Shown: in pieces, positions 7,514 through 18,458 of the stretch
How positions within the stretch are numbered: position 1 is the first letter of the stretch
Layout of the letters: each line of letters starts with the position of its first letter
Assembly (NCBI RefSeq): GCF_030067705.1
Contig: NZ_JASJEX010000005.1
Span: 62,001 to 126,000, forward strand
Source: Kribbibacterium absianum
Lineage (GTDB): Bacteria > Actinomycetota > Coriobacteriia > Coriobacteriales > Atopobiaceae
DNA length: 64,000 nucleotides
Direction of reading: 5' to 3'
Notes under the pieces: model-generated
Told to the model about the DNA's origin: nothing
What the model saw: only the letters and a program-made list of their open reading frames with translations
Database searches by the model: none
Position numbers and translations under genes: made by a program

Positions 7514-10500
7514 TTACGCCAGAACCACGTGGCCCTCTTTGCCCACGAGCGCCTGCGCCTCCGCGAACAGCACCACGTTCCGCGCGTCCACCTTCACCGG
7601 CAGCTCGAGACGCAGCGCCTGCCCATCGTCGCCCTCCACAAAGAGCTCCACGCGGTCGAGCCCCTGGTAGCGCCCGAACACGCTCGAGAGCTTGTTCAGC
7701 AGGTGCTTGTCCAGCCGTTCGGCCGGCACGAGCAGCTCGAGCACCTTCGGCCGGTTGGTCGTCTCGTCCAGGACGAGCGGCTCGATCTTGCTCGCAAGGA
7801 ACTGGTCGCCGCGGTCGGACCGGTCGATGCGCCCGAGGATCCGCACGAACACGTCTCCCCCGGCCTCGTCCCCTTCGAGCGCCGTCGCGCTGGCCTTGTA
7901 CGTCTTGGGGAACACCACCACGTCGATGTCGTTCTCCATGTCCTCGAGCGTGACGATGGCCATCGGCTCGCCCTTCTTGGTGGTCTTCTTGGCCACCGAG
8001 CTCGCCATGCCGGCCAGCCAGATCTCGCGCTCGTCGCTCACCTGGTGCATGCGCACGGCCCCTGCGGAGTCCGTCTCCTCGTAGCCGTTGAGCGCCTCGC
8101 CGATGGTGAAGCTCCGCGCCTTCGCGAGCGCGTACTCATAGGGGCGCAACGGGTGGTCCGACACGTAGATGCCGAGCACCTCGCGCTCGGCCGCGAGCTT
8201 CGCGCGGCGGTCGCCCTCGTCTTCGCTCGGCTCCGGCACGTCGTCCCCGAAGCCGCCGTTGTCCTCGTCGTCCGCGAACAGGTCGAAGAACGACGACTGC
8301 CCGGCCGCCCGTTCCTTGGAGCGCTTCGACGCCGCGTCGATGATGTTCTCGGGGTTGTTCTTGTCCACGAGCGACAGCAGCTGCCAGCGCGGGTACCCGG
8401 TGGAGTCGAAGGCGCCGGCCTTGATGAGCGCCTCGATCACGCGCCGGTTGGCCTGGGACGGGTCCACGCGGTCGACGAAGTCGTGCAGGTGCTTAAACGG
8501 CCCGGACGCCGCGCGCTCGGCCAGGATCGCCTCGGCCGCGCCCTCGCCCACGCCGCGGATGCCGGCCAGGCCGAAGCGGATGCCCTCGGGCACGGCCGTG
8601 AACTCGGTGCCGGACTCGTTGACGTCCGGCGGCAGCACGTCGAGGCCCTCCTGACGGCAGGCGCTGACGTAGTGCACGATCTTCTCGGTCTTGCCCGTGT
8701 AGCTCGTGAGCACGGCGGCCATGTACTCGCGCGGGTAGTAGGCCTTGAGCCAGGCCGTCTGCATCACGAGGATCGCGTAGCCGGCCGAGTGGCTCTTGTT
8801 GAACGCGTAGGAGGCGAACTCGAGCACGTCGTCCCAGATGCGCTGGGCCACCTCGCGCTTGTAGCCGTTCTTGACGGCGCCGTTCATCCAGTGGTCGTAG
8901 GTGGTCTCGTCGGCGCCGTCGTCCCAGTGGAACACCGTGGACGTGAGCAGCTTGATCTTCTTCTTGGCCACCGGCTTGCGGATACGGGAGTCCGACTCGC
9001 CGGCCGAGAAGCCGCTCATCTTCATCGAGATCTGCATGACCTGCTCCTGGTAGACCATCGTGCCGTAGGTCTCGTCCAGGATCTCGGACAGGCGCTCGTC
9101 GTAGAAGGCGACCTTCTCCTTGCCGTTCATGCGGTTGATGTAGGAGTCCACCATGCCGGCGCCGAGCGGGCCGGGGCGGTAGAGGGCGATGAGGGCCACC
9201 ACCTGGCGGTACTCCTTGGGCTGCATGCCCTTGATGGTGGCCGTCATGCCGCCGGACTCGATCTGGAACACGCCGGCGGTGTGGCCGCGGCCCATCAGCT
9301 CGTAGATCTTCGGGTCGTCGAAGGGGATCTTGTCCACGTCGATGTCCACGCCCACGGAGCCCGGCTTGACCGTGGCCTTGACGGCGTCGGGCGCGTTGGC
9401 GACGTCATCGGCCCCGGGGTTGTTCTCGCGGATGTTGCGGAGGGCCTTGGAGATCACGGTCAGCGTGCGGAGGCCGAGGAAGTCCATCTTGAGCAGGCCC
9501 ATGTCGGCCACCGAGTGCCCCTCGTACTGGGTGATCTCCACGCCGCCCTTGGTGTCGAGCTTCGTGGGCACGTGGTCGTTCACCGGCGTGGGGGCGATGA
9601 GGACGGCGCACGCGTGCACGCCCTCGCCGCGGGTCAGGCCCTCGATGGAAAGGGCGGCGTCGATAATGCGGCGGCTGTCCTCGTCGTTGTCGTAGGCGTC
9701 GCGGAAGTCCGGGCTGTAGAGGTCCTCGTGCCCCTCCGTCTTGTTGAGCACGAACTTGAGCTTGGCCTTGGGGTCGCTCGACACCATCTTCGAGAGCTTC
9801 TGGCCCATGAACACAGGAAAGCCGAGCACACGGTTCGCGTCGTTGAGGGCCTGCTTGGCCTTGATGGTGGAATAGGTGATGACGTGGCACACGCGCTCGG
9901 GGCCGTAGAGCTCGCGGACGTGCTGGATGACCTCGAGGCGCCGCTCGTCGTCGAAGTCCATGTCGATATCGGGCATTTCGGAGCGCTGGGGGGACAGGAA
10001 GCGCTCGAACATGAGGCCGTTCTCGAGCGGGTCGAACGTGGTGATGTCCATCGCGTAGGCCACGATGGCGCCGGCGGCCGAGCCGCGGCCGGGGCCCACG
10101 CCGATGCCGTTCTCCTTGGCCCAGCGCACGTACTCCTGGACGATGAGGAAGTAGTCCGCGAAGCCCTTCTCGCAGATGACCTGGTACTCGTACTCGAAGC
10201 GCTCGCGCACGTTGACGCCGTTGACGTCCATCGTGCGCCACTCGGGGCCGTAGCGCTTGGCGAGCCCCTCCTCGCACTCCTGGCGGAAGCGCTGCTCGGA
10301 GGTCTCCCCCTCCTTCAGGCCAGGGAACTTGGGCAGGTACATGTGCGACCAGTCGAGCTCGAAGTCGCACTTGTCGGCGATCTCCACCGTGTTGTCGCAG
10401 GCCTCGGGGTACCAGTCGAAGAGCGCGCGCATCTCCTCCTCGCTCTTCATGTAGTACTCGCCCTCGCCCGGGGCGGTCTGGGTCATGCGCAGGCGCTGCT

Positions 10501-11374
10501 CGTCGTCGAGCGTCTTGTTCATGCCGATGCAGCTCACGACGTCCTGCATGCCGGCGTCCTCGCGCGTGAGGTAGTGGAAGTCGTTGGTGGCGACCACCTT
10601 GACGCCGATGGACTTGGCCATGTCGACGAGCGTCTCCGAGAGGTGCCGGTCCGTCCAGCCCTCGACGATCTCCTCGTGGTGCTCCTGGACCTCCAAATAG
10701 AAGTCCCCGGGCGCGAACGTCTCCTTGAAGGTGCGCGCCCAGCGAAGGGCCTCGGCGGGGTTGCCGTTCATGATGTTGCGGGGAACGATGCCGGCCACGC
10801 AGGCCGAGGTGCAGATGAGGCCCTCCGAGTGCTCCTGGAGCATCTCGAGCGTGACGCGAGGCTTGTAATAGAAGCCGCGCGTGGCGGCGTCCGAGACCAC
10901 CTTCATGAGGTTGACATAGCCGGTCTCGTTCTTGGCCAGAAGGATCATGTGGTAGAGCTCGGGCTTGTGGTCGCGCGGCAGGTCCGACTCCGGCGTGAAA
11001 TAGACCTCGCAACCGAAGATGGGCTTGATCTTGGGCTTGGGTTTGACGGTGTCGAGGTCGAGCCCCGCGTCCCAGGCGGCCATGTCGCGCTCGTACTGGG
11101 CGTACGCGCGCTCGTCTTGAGGGTCCGGGGCCTCGACGGGACGGCCTTTGAGCAGGTTGTCCTTGTCGTGGAACCACTGCTGGTAGTCGGGCTCGGCGTG
11201 GTTGTAGGAATCCGTGGCGAGCGCGAGGTCCGGCACGCCGTACATGTAACCGTGGTCCGTGATCGCGACGGCCGGCATGCCGAGGTCGACCGCTCGCTTG
11301 ACCATGTCCTCGACGCGGGTAGCGCCATCGAGCATGGAGTAGTCCGTGTGGTTGTGGAGATGGACGAAGGCCAT
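7514..11374 (-). CDS. dnaE: DNA polymerase III alpha subunit
   Basis: The 1286-residue replicative polymerase begins with the PHP domain (FVHLHNHTDYSMLDG). The polymerase active-site loop PDIDMDFDDERR lies near residue 465, followed by the GRGSAAGA-containing palm region, tandem helix-hairpin-helix and OB-fold segments, and a C-terminal tau-binding region. The length fits the DnaE1 group of actinobacteria. The true start is ATG 11374, behind GGAAGGGAG. The frame stays open for 118 further codons upstream, but these only translate R1 repeats and should not be annotated. No frameshift is visible. It is a single-gene unit read toward the histidine kinase gene. Confidence 0.96.
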   Translation of the reverse strand: MAFVHLHNHTDYSMLDGATRVEDMVKRAVDLGMPAVAITDHGYMYGVPDLALATDSYNHAEPDYQQWFHDKDNLLKGRPVEAPDPQDERAYAQYERDMAAWDAGLDLDTVKPKPKIKPIFGCEVYFTPESDLPRDHKPELYHMILLAKNETGYVNLMKVVSDAATRGFYYKPRVTLEMLQEHSEGLICTSACVAGIVPRNIMNGNPAEALRWARTFKETFAPGDFYLEVQEHHEEIVEGWTDRHLSETLVDMAKSIGVKVVATNDFHYLTREDAGMQDVVSCIGMNKTLDDEQRLRMTQTAPGEGEYYMKSEEEMRALFDWYPEACDNTVEIADKCDFELDWSHMYLPKFPGLKEGETSEQRFRQECEEGLAKRYGPEWRTMDVNGVNVRERFEYEYQVICEKGFADYFLIVQEYVRWAKENGIGVGPGRGSAAGAIVAYAMDITTFDPLENGLMFERFLSPQRSEMPDIDMDFDDERRLEVIQHVRELYGPERVCHVITYSTIKAKQALNDANRVLGFPVFMGQKLSKMVSSDPKAKLKFVLNKTEGHEDLYSPDFRDAYDNDEDSRRIIDAALSIEGLTRGEGVHACAVLIAPTPVNDHVPTKLDTKGGVEITQYEGHSVADMGLLKMDFLGLRTLTVISKALRNIRENNPGADDVANAPDAVKATVKPGSVGVDIDVDKIPFDDPKIYELMGRGHTAGVFQIESGGMTATIKGMQPKEYRQVVALIALYRPGPLGAGMVDSYINRMNGKEKVAFYDERLSEILDETYGTMVYQEQVMQISMKMSGFSAGESDSRIRKPVAKKKIKLLTSTVFHWDDGADETTYDHWMNGAVKNGYKREVAQRIWDDVLEFASYAFNKSHSAGYAILVMQTAWLKAYYPREYMAAVLTSYTGKTEKIVHYVSACRQEGLDVLPPDVNESGTEFTAVPEGIRFGLAGIRGVGEGAAEAILAERAASGPFKHLHDFVDRVDPSQANRRVIEALIKAGAFDSTGYPRWQLLSLVDKNNPENIIDAASKRSKERAAGQSSFFDLFADDEDNGGFGDDVPEPSEDEGDRRAKLAAEREVLGIYVSDHPLRPYEYALAKARSFTIGEALNGYEETDSAGAVRMHQVSDEREIWLAGMASSVAKKTTKKGEPMAIVTLEDMENDIDVVVFPKTYKASATALEGDEAGGDVFVRILGRIDRSDRGDQFLASKIEPLVLDETTNRPKVLELLVPAERLDKHLLNKLSSVFGRYQGLDRVELFVEGDDGQALRLELPVKVDARNVVLFAEAQALVGKEGHVVLA

Positions 11375-11432
11375 GCGGGCTCCCTTCCGACGATGGGGAG
11401 ACCGATGGTACCCGATGGGGCGCGGTGCGGCT

Positions 11433-11650
11433 GGGACACAGGTGCCGGACACGTCTGTCCCAACTGGGACGCAGGTGCCGGACGCGTTTGTCCCAGCGCT
11501 TGTCCCGGGCGGGACGCTGGGCTCCGGCACCACTGTCCCAACTGGGACGCAGGTGCCGGACGCGTTTGTCCCAGCGCTTGTCCCGGGCGGGACGCTGGGC
11601 TCCGGCACCACTGTCCCACCTGGGACGCAGGTGCCGGACACGAACGTCCC
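11433..11650. repeat. R1 repeat array, six copies with an internal 78-bp duplication
   Basis: Units lie at 11433, 11466, 11511, 11544, 11589 and 11622 in alternating orientation. The pair at 11466/11511 is repeated at 11544/11589 with a 78-bp period and practically no change. The array fills the gap between the stop of the RyR-type protein gene (11661) and the dnaE start region. Confidence 0.95.
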
Positions 11651-11660
11651 GCCGGGCGCG

Positions 11661-14450
11661 CTACCCGCGCCTGCGCGTTCTCTTGCGCCCCATGCCCTCC
11701 AGTCGGTGCAGGTGGGGGTGCCTCCCATACTCGGGCTCGATCACCTCGCGCCTCATGGCCCGCACCGCCTGCGTCACTATGGCCCGGTCGTAGGCCGCCG
11801 GGTCGCCGCGGCATTCCGCGCCCCGCATGCGGTACGCCGCGGGATCGTCGACCAGATAGTAATGACGCATCAGCCGCATCGACTCGTGTGGATAGGGACG
11901 CGCGGGGTCGTCCTGCAGCCCAACGAACGAGACCATCCGCTCGAGCGCGTCGAAGCCCCCGTCCACGGCGCTCCAGCCCTGGGCGCGCAGGAACGCGCAC
12001 CAGCGCGCATGCTCGAGGTCCCCGAGCGAGCACACCACCGGGTACTCCTTGGCCTCGGCCTCCTCCACGGACCTGAGGAGCGCCACGCGTTTGTCGCGGT
12101 CCTCCTGGGAGAGCCCCCGGTCCGGAAAATCGATGCCGCAGAGCAGGCGCACGGCCGTCTCGTCGCGGCCCGTCAGCGACACCGCCAGCGCCTGGGTCCC
12201 CAGCTTGTCCGCCCACTGCGCCGCCGCCTCCTCCGACGGGAAGCCGCCGTTGGCCTCGAGCCCAACGCACCACAGGCGGTACGGCGTGAACCGGGTCGCC
12301 GCGCGGTTGGAGAGCTTCTTGATCTCGTAGCTGTTGAACGCCTCCATGGCCTCGGCGTGCGTGACCTGCGGGTCGAGCCCCTGCGCGACGCGCCGCGCCT
12401 GCGTGTAGGCCGCCTGCAGGTTGATGGCCGCGTCCTCCCAGGGGGCTCCGAGGATCCGCTCGTAGGAGAAGGCCTCCTGCGTGGAACCGAACGGGCGCAA
12501 CGAGAACTGCTCGTCGCCATGGGTCACGTCGCGCACGGACTCGAGCACCTCTTGGTTGCGCACCAGCACGCTGACCAGCGGGTTCTGTGCCGGCGGCGAG
12601 CCCGCCGACAGGCGCCCCGCCAGGGCCCGCCGCGACAGGGTGCGCTCCAGGCGCAAGGCCGCGTCGAGCGACAGGTCGTCGGCCCCGAGCATCACCATCA
12701 CATAGATGCGGGACGAGTCCCCGACGACGATGGTCTCCGGCTCCTCTCCCTCCGGCCCAATCGAGAAGCCCTGCACCGGCGTGCCGTCGAGCAGGTCGTG
12801 CATCGCGAGGGAGCGTGCGTCCGCTTCCATGAAGCAGACGGTGGGAACGGCGTCGGAGCCGGAGGCGTCCGTCAGCGGGCGCTCAAGGTCCGGGCGCACG
12901 GACGGCATGCCTTCCGGAACGCGCTCGAACACCAGCTCCGGCCATGCGGCCGCCATGTGCTGGGCCACGTCCCGCGCGCGACGGTCGACGCCCACGATGC
13001 GCAGCTCCACGCCCGGCAGCCGCCCGAACCAGAAGCACGCACGGAGCGCCTCGAGGCCGAACGAGCCCAGCCCGCAGATCACCACCACGAGCCGCTGGAA
13101 CGGCACGATGTCCTGCGAGACGTCCACCGGGTCGAGCACCTGCGTGAGCGGGTTGGTCGTGAGCGTGTCCCACACCACCTCGCGCTGCTCGGAAATGAGG
13201 CGCACCTCCACGAGGTTGCGCACCACGACCATCAAGGGCTGCAGCGCGGTCTCGATGTGCGGGCGGCGCTTGTCCGCCGAGCCGCGGTCGGCGTTGTGGC
13301 GGAGCAGGTGCACCATCAGCTGGTCGTCGGGCTTGCGCTGCGGCAGCGAGTCGAAGATCAGGTCGTCGTCCGGGTTGTCGTGGACGCACCAGACGCGGAC
13401 GTTGCGGGCGTAGGCCTCGGTGCGCGGGCGGAGCTGGGGCTTCGGCTCGATGTTGCGGACGTCCCAGCGCCGCCCGATCATCTCCCACACCATCATTTGC
13501 GTGGTGAGCTGGTCGCAGAGGCGGATGGTGGCCTGGACGTTCTCGTCGGTGTCGTCCGAGAGCACGAGGTAATAGACGTTGCAGCGGGTCTGCGTGGGGG
13601 GCGCGAGGCGGTTGGGGATGTTCTCGAGGGGCATCGGCGTGAAGATCACCGTCGCGCAGCCATAGGCGTCCTGGCGCACTTGCTGCACGAGCGAGTCGCC
13701 CTCCCCGGTCGACCCCTCGACATTGCAGAAGATCAGGAGCGGCATGCGGTCGCGCGGATTGTCGCTCGACTTGTCGGCCACCTGTCCGAGCAGGTCCAGG
13801 GCGAGCGTGGAGGTGTTGTCGTCGAGACCGTAGAAGACGTAGATGTCGCGGCGGCGGACGCACTTCTTCCAGCTCTCGAAATAGACCATGAAACCGGTCA
13901 GGCCGTTCATCAGCACATCCATGGCCGTGAGCGCAAGGGCCACGGGGCTCGCGACGGTGTAGAACGCGAGCAGCCAAAAGTAGAGCTCCGCGAGCGCGCC
14001 GTTGCCCATGATGGTGTGGATCGTGACGGTCCAGTCCGAGAGGTCCGCCGAGAAGCCCATGGTCTCGAACATGAGGTAGGCGGCCGCAGGGACGGACTCG
14101 CCGAGCTTGGGCCACAGGTAGCCCGAGCCGGCCGTGGTGTGCATCGCAATGGGCAGGAGGAGGAAGAACCCGCCGAGCAGGATCATCGCGAACTTGCCCG
14201 CCATCGTGCCGAGCCATTTGACCTGGCTCTTGAAGCGGTCGCTCGCGACCGAGAGGATGATCGCGACGACGCAACCGACGCCGATGAGGAAGCAGACGGC
14301 CGCGAGCGGATCCGTGGCGCTGACCTCCGCGAGGCGCTCGCTCATCTGGCGGGACGTGTCGATGGCCGCCGTGGCGTCGGCTTCGGCCGTGGCGCTCAAG
14401 GTCCTGCCCTTGTCCGCCACCTGCATCATCGTCGCCAGGCCATTGAGCAC
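11661..14450 (-). CDS. Large membrane protein with two Rossmann-like domains and a C-terminal RyR-type domain
   Basis: The 929-residue protein has membrane segments near residues 47-68, 82-105 and 150-178. A first nucleotide-binding-like domain follows (DIYVFYGLDDNTSTLALDLL), then a second with a clear GxGxxG turn (VVVICGLGSFGLEALRAC). The C-terminal region contains DLEHARWCAFLRAQGW and later HYYLVDD, resembling the short bacterial RyR domain. The layout recalls channel or sensor proteins with cytoplasmic NAD- or ligand-binding domains. The start is GTG 14450, six bases after GAGGAGG. It is a monocistronic unit next to tRNA-Gln. I do not know its function. Membrane signalling or defence, where RyR and TrkA-N-like domains have been found together, is a guess from architecture only. 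Confidence 0.75.
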   Translation of the reverse strand: MLNGLATMMQVADKGRTLSATAEADATAAIDTSRQMSERLAEVSATDPLAAVCFLIGVGCVVAIILSVASDRFKSQVKWLGTMAGKFAMILLGGFFLLLPIAMHTTAGSGYLWPKLGESVPAAAYLMFETMGFSADLSDWTVTIHTIMGNGALAELYFWLLAFYTVASPVALALTAMDVLMNGLTGFMVYFESWKKCVRRRDIYVFYGLDDNTSTLALDLLGQVADKSSDNPRDRMPLLIFCNVEGSTGEGDSLVQQVRQDAYGCATVIFTPMPLENIPNRLAPPTQTRCNVYYLVLSDDTDENVQATIRLCDQLTTQMMVWEMIGRRWDVRNIEPKPQLRPRTEAYARNVRVWCVHDNPDDDLIFDSLPQRKPDDQLMVHLLRHNADRGSADKRRPHIETALQPLMVVVRNLVEVRLISEQREVVWDTLTTNPLTQVLDPVDVSQDIVPFQRLVVVICGLGSFGLEALRACFWFGRLPGVELRIVGVDRRARDVAQHMAAAWPELVFERVPEGMPSVRPDLERPLTDASGSDAVPTVCFMEADARSLAMHDLLDGTPVQGFSIGPEGEEPETIVVGDSSRIYVMVMLGADDLSLDAALRLERTLSRRALAGRLSAGSPPAQNPLVSVLVRNQEVLESVRDVTHGDEQFSLRPFGSTQEAFSYERILGAPWEDAAINLQAAYTQARRVAQGLDPQVTHAEAMEAFNSYEIKKLSNRAATRFTPYRLWCVGLEANGGFPSEEAAAQWADKLGTQALAVSLTGRDETAVRLLCGIDFPDRGLSQEDRDKRVALLRSVEEAEAKEYPVVCSLGDLEHARWCAFLRAQGWSAVDGGFDALERMVSFVGLQDDPARPYPHESMRLMRHYYLVDDPAAYRMRGAECRGDPAAYDRAIVTQAVRAMRREVIEPEYGRHPHLHRLEGMGRKRTRRRG

Positions 14451-14483
14451 GCCGCGCCTCCTCGTCCCTTGTTTGTCAGGGGT

Positions 14484-14511
14484 TTGTTCCCCGGCGCGGG
14501 GCTGCTACACT
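14484..14511 (+). promoter_or_regulatory. Promoter of tRNA-Gln
   Basis: TTGTTC at 14484-14489 and TACACT at 14506-14511 are separated by 16 bp. The -10 box is 11 bp from the mature tRNA 5' end, giving a very short leader. Confidence 0.6.
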
Positions 14512-14522
14512 GAACAGACCTT

Positions 14523-14596
14523 TGGGGTATCGTCCAACGGCAGGACCCTGGTTTTTGGTGCCAGTTATGGGGGTTCGAATCCCTCTGCCCCAGCCA
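14523..14596 (+). tRNA. tRNA-Gln (UUG anticodon)
   Basis: The 74-base sequence folds as a cloverleaf. The acceptor is TGGGGTA paired with TGCCCCA, the D stem is GTCC/GGAC, and the anticodon stem is CTGGT/GCCAG. The loop TTTTGGT places UUG at positions 34-36. The T arm has the TTCGAAT loop. The CCA end is encoded (14594-14596). It stands alone, with its own promoter and a terminator 11 bp downstream. Confidence 0.97.
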
Positions 14597-14690: not shown

Positions 14691-14824
14691 GGGACACTTG
14701 TGCCGTAGCCGTGCGTCCCGCGCTGGGACACCGGTGCCGGTCACGTGCGTCCCACCGGAACTGGGACACCGGTGCCGGACGCGTGCGTCCCACCCGGGAC
14801 ACTGGTGCCGGACACGTGCGTCCC
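14691..14824 (+). repeat. R1 repeat array, four copies
   Basis: Units at 14691, 14725, 14763 and 14796 all have the same orientation. The first has the core variant GTGCCGTAG. The last unit ends eight bases from the stop of the minus-strand SRAP gene. Confidence 0.93.
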
Positions 14825-18303: not shown

Positions 18304-18458
18304 GGGACACTGGTGCCGGACACGGCTGTCCCATCGCGGCTGGCGCGCGGGACACTGGTGCCGGACGCGTTTGTCCCAGCCCGCGGGACATAGGTGCCGG
18401 ACGCGTTTGTCCCTCCCCAACTGGCGGCTGGGACGCCGGTGCGGGACAACTATGTCCC
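18304..18458 (+). repeat. R1 repeat array, four copies plus a fragment
   Basis: Units at 18304, 18349, 18385 and 18430 follow a truncated copy at 18293. The last has a divergent core (GTGCGGGACAAC). The array lies between the prs terminator and pth. Confidence 0.9.

Follow-up and report, generated by a model that had tools for sequence, protein, structure and literature searches.

The RCK-RyR gene and its locus

We analysed a 64,000-nucleotide stretch of the Kribbibacterium absianum genome (contig NZ_JASJEX010000005.1, positions 62,001 to 126,000; hereafter the window), focusing on a gene that an earlier note, made from the letters and their translations, had described as a stand-alone membrane protein with a Rossmann-like pair and a RyR-type C-terminus. 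We read this gene of a gut bacterium, at a probability of about 60%, as encoding a membrane protein of channel type whose gating ligand is an adenine nucleotide made from nicotinamide adenine dinucleotide (NAD), and as an orphan related to candidate TIR effectors of a Thoeris-like kind. The gene and its immediate neighbours are as follows.

11661..14450, minus strand: RCK-RyR membrane protein gene, whole open reading frame (ORF); 929 amino acids, GTG start; identified from homologues and a GC content at third codon positions of 0.94
7514..11728, minus strand: dnaE (DNA polymerase III alpha), a neighbour retained throughout the close clade; the ORF is over-extended at its start, across a repeat array
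14523..14596, plus strand: tRNA-Gln(ttg), upstream of the RCK-RyR gene and divergent from it; common to relative L045

The minus-strand ORF is a real gene, because its codon-position GC (0.68/0.45/0.94) is accompanied by full-length, intact homologues in other genera at 43-55% identity. A plus-strand candidate, ORF 11346-14513, is a shadow ORF ruled out by codon-position GC. The window protein had no match in Pfam or NCBIfam (a single insignificant Pfam line, E 0.11), none in PADLOC, which was also negative for relatives L042 and L055, and no credible viral match in BFVD; PDB sequence searches with the protein and with its C-terminal alignment were likewise negative. Also nearby in the window are genes for a SRAP protein, a glmU-like protein and prs, and the gene does stand alone, with dnaE on one side and tRNA-Gln on the other.

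A predicted membrane segment and tandem-RCK gating ring

The AlphaFold model of the protein, built from 19 relatives, reached a mean predicted local distance difference test score (pLDDT) of 81 and a predicted template modelling score of 0.78, and together with hydropathy it defines these features (TM, transmembrane helix).

14244..14309, minus strand: TM1, residues 48-69; model helix, hydropathy 2.83
14139..14204, minus strand: TM2, residues 83-104; model helix, hydropathy
14058..14105, minus strand: pore-helix-like re-entrant segment, residues 116-131; selectivity-filter position without TVGYG; model
13857..13997, minus strand: TM3, long inner helix continuing into RCK1, residues 152-198; model, hydropathy
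13155..13853, minus strand: RCK1 Rossmann domain, residues about 200-432; degenerate glycine motif
12441..13103, minus strand: RCK2 Rossmann domain, residues about 450-670; GxGxxGxE motif at 460-467, D489

Hydropathy marks three segments, at about residues 50-68, 87-105 and 156-188, in agreement with the model helices; ahead of RCK1 the model places a membrane-type helix, a pore-helix-like segment and a second membrane-type helix in that order (83-104, 116-131 and 152-198). Residues 183-891 of the model, with two RCK domains in one chain, align to TrkA, MtDMI1, GsuK, CASTOR and Slo1 (VIA-align Z of 14.0, 13.7, 12.9, 12.6 and 10.7, respectively), and Slo1 was also the top Foldseek match (E 6e-4); the GsuK alignment begins at residue 76, but with a root mean square deviation (rmsd) above 9 Å. 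The RCK2 motif is well kept among relatives (G460 in 58/58, G462 in 50/58, G465 in 48/58 and E467 in 47/58).

Like GsuK, Slo1/BK and CASTOR/DMI1 (Z 10.7-13.7), the window protein has a membrane segment with two RCK Rossmann domains after it; unlike them, it lacks TVGYG, has no Pfam-detectable sequence similarity and carries a C-terminal RyR-like domain. TrkA, the closest structural match of the RCK pair, is a soluble protein that serves TrkH, whereas the window protein has TM helices of its own and the RyR-like tail. The Rossmann-like pair expected from the sequence thus corresponds in the model to RCK gating rings (about 200-430 and 450-670), and the suggestion of a ligand-gated channel or sensor, which the tandem-RCK model fits, is well supported at the level of predicted structure.

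A RyR-like tail with conserved pocket residues

Animal ryanodine receptors contain a part that binds ADP-ribose-type signals, and the tail of the window protein resembles that part. Its features, with the equivalent residues of the phage protein RyDEP (NC_053511.1 gp78), are given below; the RyDEP residues H75, W78, H100 and D117 were checked by position and then aligned to the family.

11736..12107, minus strand: extended RyR-like (Repeat12-type) domain, residues about 782-905; hhalign, VIA
12000..12011, minus strand: H814-A-R-W817, equivalents of RyDEP H75 and W78 (PMC13232231)
11862..11864, minus strand: H863, equivalent of RyDEP H100 (phosphate contact)
11787..11789, minus strand: D888, equivalent of RyDEP D117 (ribose contact/catalysis)

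At the Pfam gathering score, PF02026 matched neither the window protein nor its relatives. Profile comparison by hhalign against RyR domains taken from related genomes gave 98.5% (E 3e-15) for the C-terminal alignment and 0.1-0.3% for control regions elsewhere in the protein; with RyDEP included the values were 98.0% and 0.3-4.1%, and the window's close clade by itself gave 89.7% over 22 columns. When the tail was modelled by itself (pLDDT 71), the sole two PDB matches reported were human RyR3 Repeat12 with AMP-PCP (9ls7) and the bacterial RyR structure 3nrt.

The four RyDEP residues contact cyclic-ADP-ribose signals (PMC13232231). Their equivalents are conserved in the family (H814 in 57/58, W817 in 58/58, H863 in 54/58 and D888 in 44/45 aligned), and all four are present in the window protein. 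The tail shares the HxxW, GW, H and D adenine-nucleotide contact positions of PF02026, animal Repeat12 and RyDEP (hhalign 98%), from which it differs in falling below the Pfam threshold, in a long insertion between its halves and in its fusion to a membrane gating ring. Because the RyDEP contact residues are conserved, and because nucleotide binding by RyR1 Repeat12 is ascribed to a tryptophan site (PMC12627627), nucleotide sensing is the best-supported guess for the tail. Hydropathy, the AlphaFold model and hhalign together bear out the order of membrane helices, two Rossmann domains and RyR-like C-terminus originally noted, the last of these also through the tail model and the conserved ligand residues.

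Immune-type neighbours of relatives

We detected the family in 56 of 395 genomes from the order and in 32 of 300 from one clostridial family; in the set of relatives, 17 of 150 genomes had a match. Records named as Clostridia, Oscillospiraceae and Lachnospiraceae also contain it, and the wider family spans Coriobacteriia and Oscillospirales. Many relatives adjoin genes for TIR proteins, which carry beta-propeller repeats (L042, L097, L100, L104, L109, L111, L113), MORN repeats (L169) or no further called domain (L064, L099, L107). A second set of neighbours, arranged in compact cassettes, comprises an AAA+-AAA+-M41 protease (L055, L062, L095, L098, L155, L167), two YbjN proteins (L055, L062, L155, L167) and a CARF-PDDEXK nuclease (L055, L062, L064, L162, L167); a DUF4062/NACHT-like protein adjoins L171.

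Among the 47 loci outside the dnaE-linked clade described below, 14 had a TIR-propeller match within 5 kb, against 0.25 expected from random placement in the same genomes, a contrast inflated by defence-island clustering, which such placement ignores; 4 of the 14 (in G200, G202, G278 and G092) were matched by their RyR part only. Some pairs are operon-like, with a 23 bp overlap in L042 and a 5 bp gap in L109. On the 58-row tree the TIR and M41 labels each require at least 5 changes, so gains or losses of the pairing have been numerous. This gene association is established at the level of the family, and given the TIR, CARF-nuclease and AAA-M41 neighbours, a link to immune signalling is well supported for the relatives.

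As in Thoeris, where the TIR protein ThsB accompanies ThsA, many relatives adjoin TIR proteins having a separate sensor part; the effector here would be an RCK-RyR membrane protein rather than a SIR2-SLOG or TM-Macro ThsA, and the window copy has neither an adjoining TIR (ThsB) gene nor a ThsA-type effector match in PADLOC.

Further arrangements were seen at individual loci. A compact clostridial cassette of AAA-AAA-M41, two YbjN and RCK-RyR genes recurs in L055, L062, L155 and L167, with the CARF-PDDEXK nuclease present at three of these loci, and we recognised no described system in it. In L169 (588-4223) a TIR-MORN fusion lies immediately upstream of the RCK-RyR gene, with a gap of 14 bp. 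Canonical PF02026 RyR genes were found 2-4 kb from TIR-propeller genes in two genomes (G122:C1 2052704-2057624 and G014:C172 8399-11967), and the TIR link may therefore extend to other RyR proteins.

An orphan copy in a dnaE-linked clade

The window protein groups with seven relatives in a single clade of 99/99 support, whose examined members adjoin dnaE, and the dnaE neighbourhood is conserved in L031-L038; the window copy is vertically inherited within this clade. Its sister lineages have a TIR partner (L079) and an M41 partner (L077). A blastp search found no dnaE next to the relatives from Clostridia or to the divergent ones, and the large genes adjoining L039, L040, L055 and L062, whose size had suggested dnaE, gave no dnaE match either.

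The window copy is an orphan. The proposal of a one-protein defence device was not borne out, because its dnaE-linked clade is without such immune-type partners and a search of the window genome (G000) found no TIR_2 domain, and an immune link for this gene is unproven. The earlier association of RyR domains with immune-type signalling holds for relatives, given their TIR, CARF-nuclease and AAA-M41 neighbours and a mechanism that is plausible after PMC13232231; the window gene has no such partners. Neither of the two findings that would have counted against the earlier reading was seen: a RyR match exists at the profile level, and housekeeping context is limited to the close clade, with other relatives lying beside immune-signalling genes.

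The RCK-RyR gene is divergent from dnaE in the relatives checked (L031-L038) and co-directional with it in the window, so segment 11661-14596, flanked on both sides by short-repeat arrays, has probably been inverted. The short intergenic repeat GGTGCCGGACNCG, with TGTCCCA-like flanks, lies at 11441-11642, 14734-14816, 18312-18405 and elsewhere in the window, with 20 window copies against 0.06 expected; its distribution is strongly regional, with 35 of 46 genome copies on the 158-kb contig C5. The first ~117 residues of the longest dnaE ORF (11378-11728) are translated repeat array, and the conserved start lies near 11377.

Proposed mechanism and alternatives

The predicted architecture combines three TM helices, a pore loop of non-canonical sequence, a tandem-RCK gating ring in the cytosol and the C-terminal RyR/Repeat12-like domain. 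In the mechanism that we consider most likely, an NAD-derived adenine nucleotide would bind the RyR pocket, the RCK2 dinucleotide site or both, and the resulting change in the gating ring would open or close an ion pathway. The ligand may be ADP-ribose (ADPR) or cyclic ADP-ribose (cADPR) in TIR-linked relatives, and NAD, ADPR or a related metabolite in the orphan copy. Relatives would act as candidate effectors of TIR- or CARF-linked immune signalling, while the window clade would have become, or stayed, a stand-alone dnaE-linked sensor. Ligand, gating, ion flux and biological role are what we infer here.

Several observations weigh against this proposal. The canonical K+ filter TVGYG is absent, the corresponding stretch reading TMGFSAD in the window protein and TFSMDED in Clostridia; because of this the modelled membrane part resembles a channel only in its layout, and ion conduction is unproven. 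The RyR matches of the tail model are weak (Z 4.2-4.3, rmsd 7-10 Å), and the H863 position is N in the Olsenella members L037 and L046. Searches of the window genome, other TIR families not being covered, found no TIR_2 domain and no TIR-propeller homologue, and the dnaE linkage of close relatives is consistent with a housekeeping role.

These last points fit an ordinary regulator of ion homeostasis, a tandem-RCK channel responding to NAD, ADP or ATP levels and lacking an immune role in this clade, its proximity to dnaE being an inherited position. The single, strongly supported dnaE-linked clade with its conserved neighbourhood, the housekeeping genes around the window gene and the negative TIR_2 and TIR-propeller searches are all as expected, and we regard this as a serious if somewhat doubtful alternative: the sister lineages have TIR and AAA-M41 partners, the RyR pocket residues are retained, and most relatives are without the gene, which would be unusual for basic ion homeostasis.

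It is improbable that the tail instead breaks down cADPR-type signals as an enzyme or soaks them up as a sponge, in which case the protein would dampen signalling and not carry it out. In 2026, RyR domains from phages were shown to bind TIR-made cADPR signals or to cleave them (PMC13232231), and both members of the RyDEP catalytic dyad have equivalents here (H814 and D888); however, most phage RyR homologues tested bind without cleaving (PMC13232231), a large insertion separates the two conserved halves of the domain, and fusion to a gating ring and pore-like TM helices suggests sensing. A replication-coupled membrane sensor working with DNA polymerase III is very unlikely, since the gene's position next to dnaE in four genera whose neighbourhoods are intact (g1, g19, g21, g23) is offset by usually divergent transcription, so that the two genes are not one operon, by the flipped orientation in the window and by the lack of dnaE beside Clostridia and divergent relatives.

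Going beyond the nucleotide-gated channel that we favour, we tentatively raise the possibility that RCK-RyR proteins are ion-channel effectors in an undescribed TIR (and CARF) branch, in which TIR would make a cyclic-ADP-ribose signal, the RyR tail would read it and the gating ring would open the pore, with the window copy a stand-alone descendant fixed beside dnaE. Such a pathway would be a bacterial counterpart of the disputed link from cADPR to the ryanodine receptor in animals.

Significance

The family joins known kinds of parts, namely RCK channels, RyR nucleotide pockets and TIR-coupled effectors. The main text of PMC13232231 names no bacterial RyR channel effector, and we found no literature linking RyR with TrkA/RCK and phage defence in a search whose coverage excluded the TIR-systems preprint doi 10.64898/2025.12.03.692087. 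If our reading is true, this widespread family, which unites a RyR-like pocket carrying all four contact residues with an RCK ring and a membrane segment and recurs beside TIR sensors, would supply such an effector. The old cADPR-RyR question would then become testable in bacteria, and the window copy would be an example of an immune-type part turning into a stand-alone gene.
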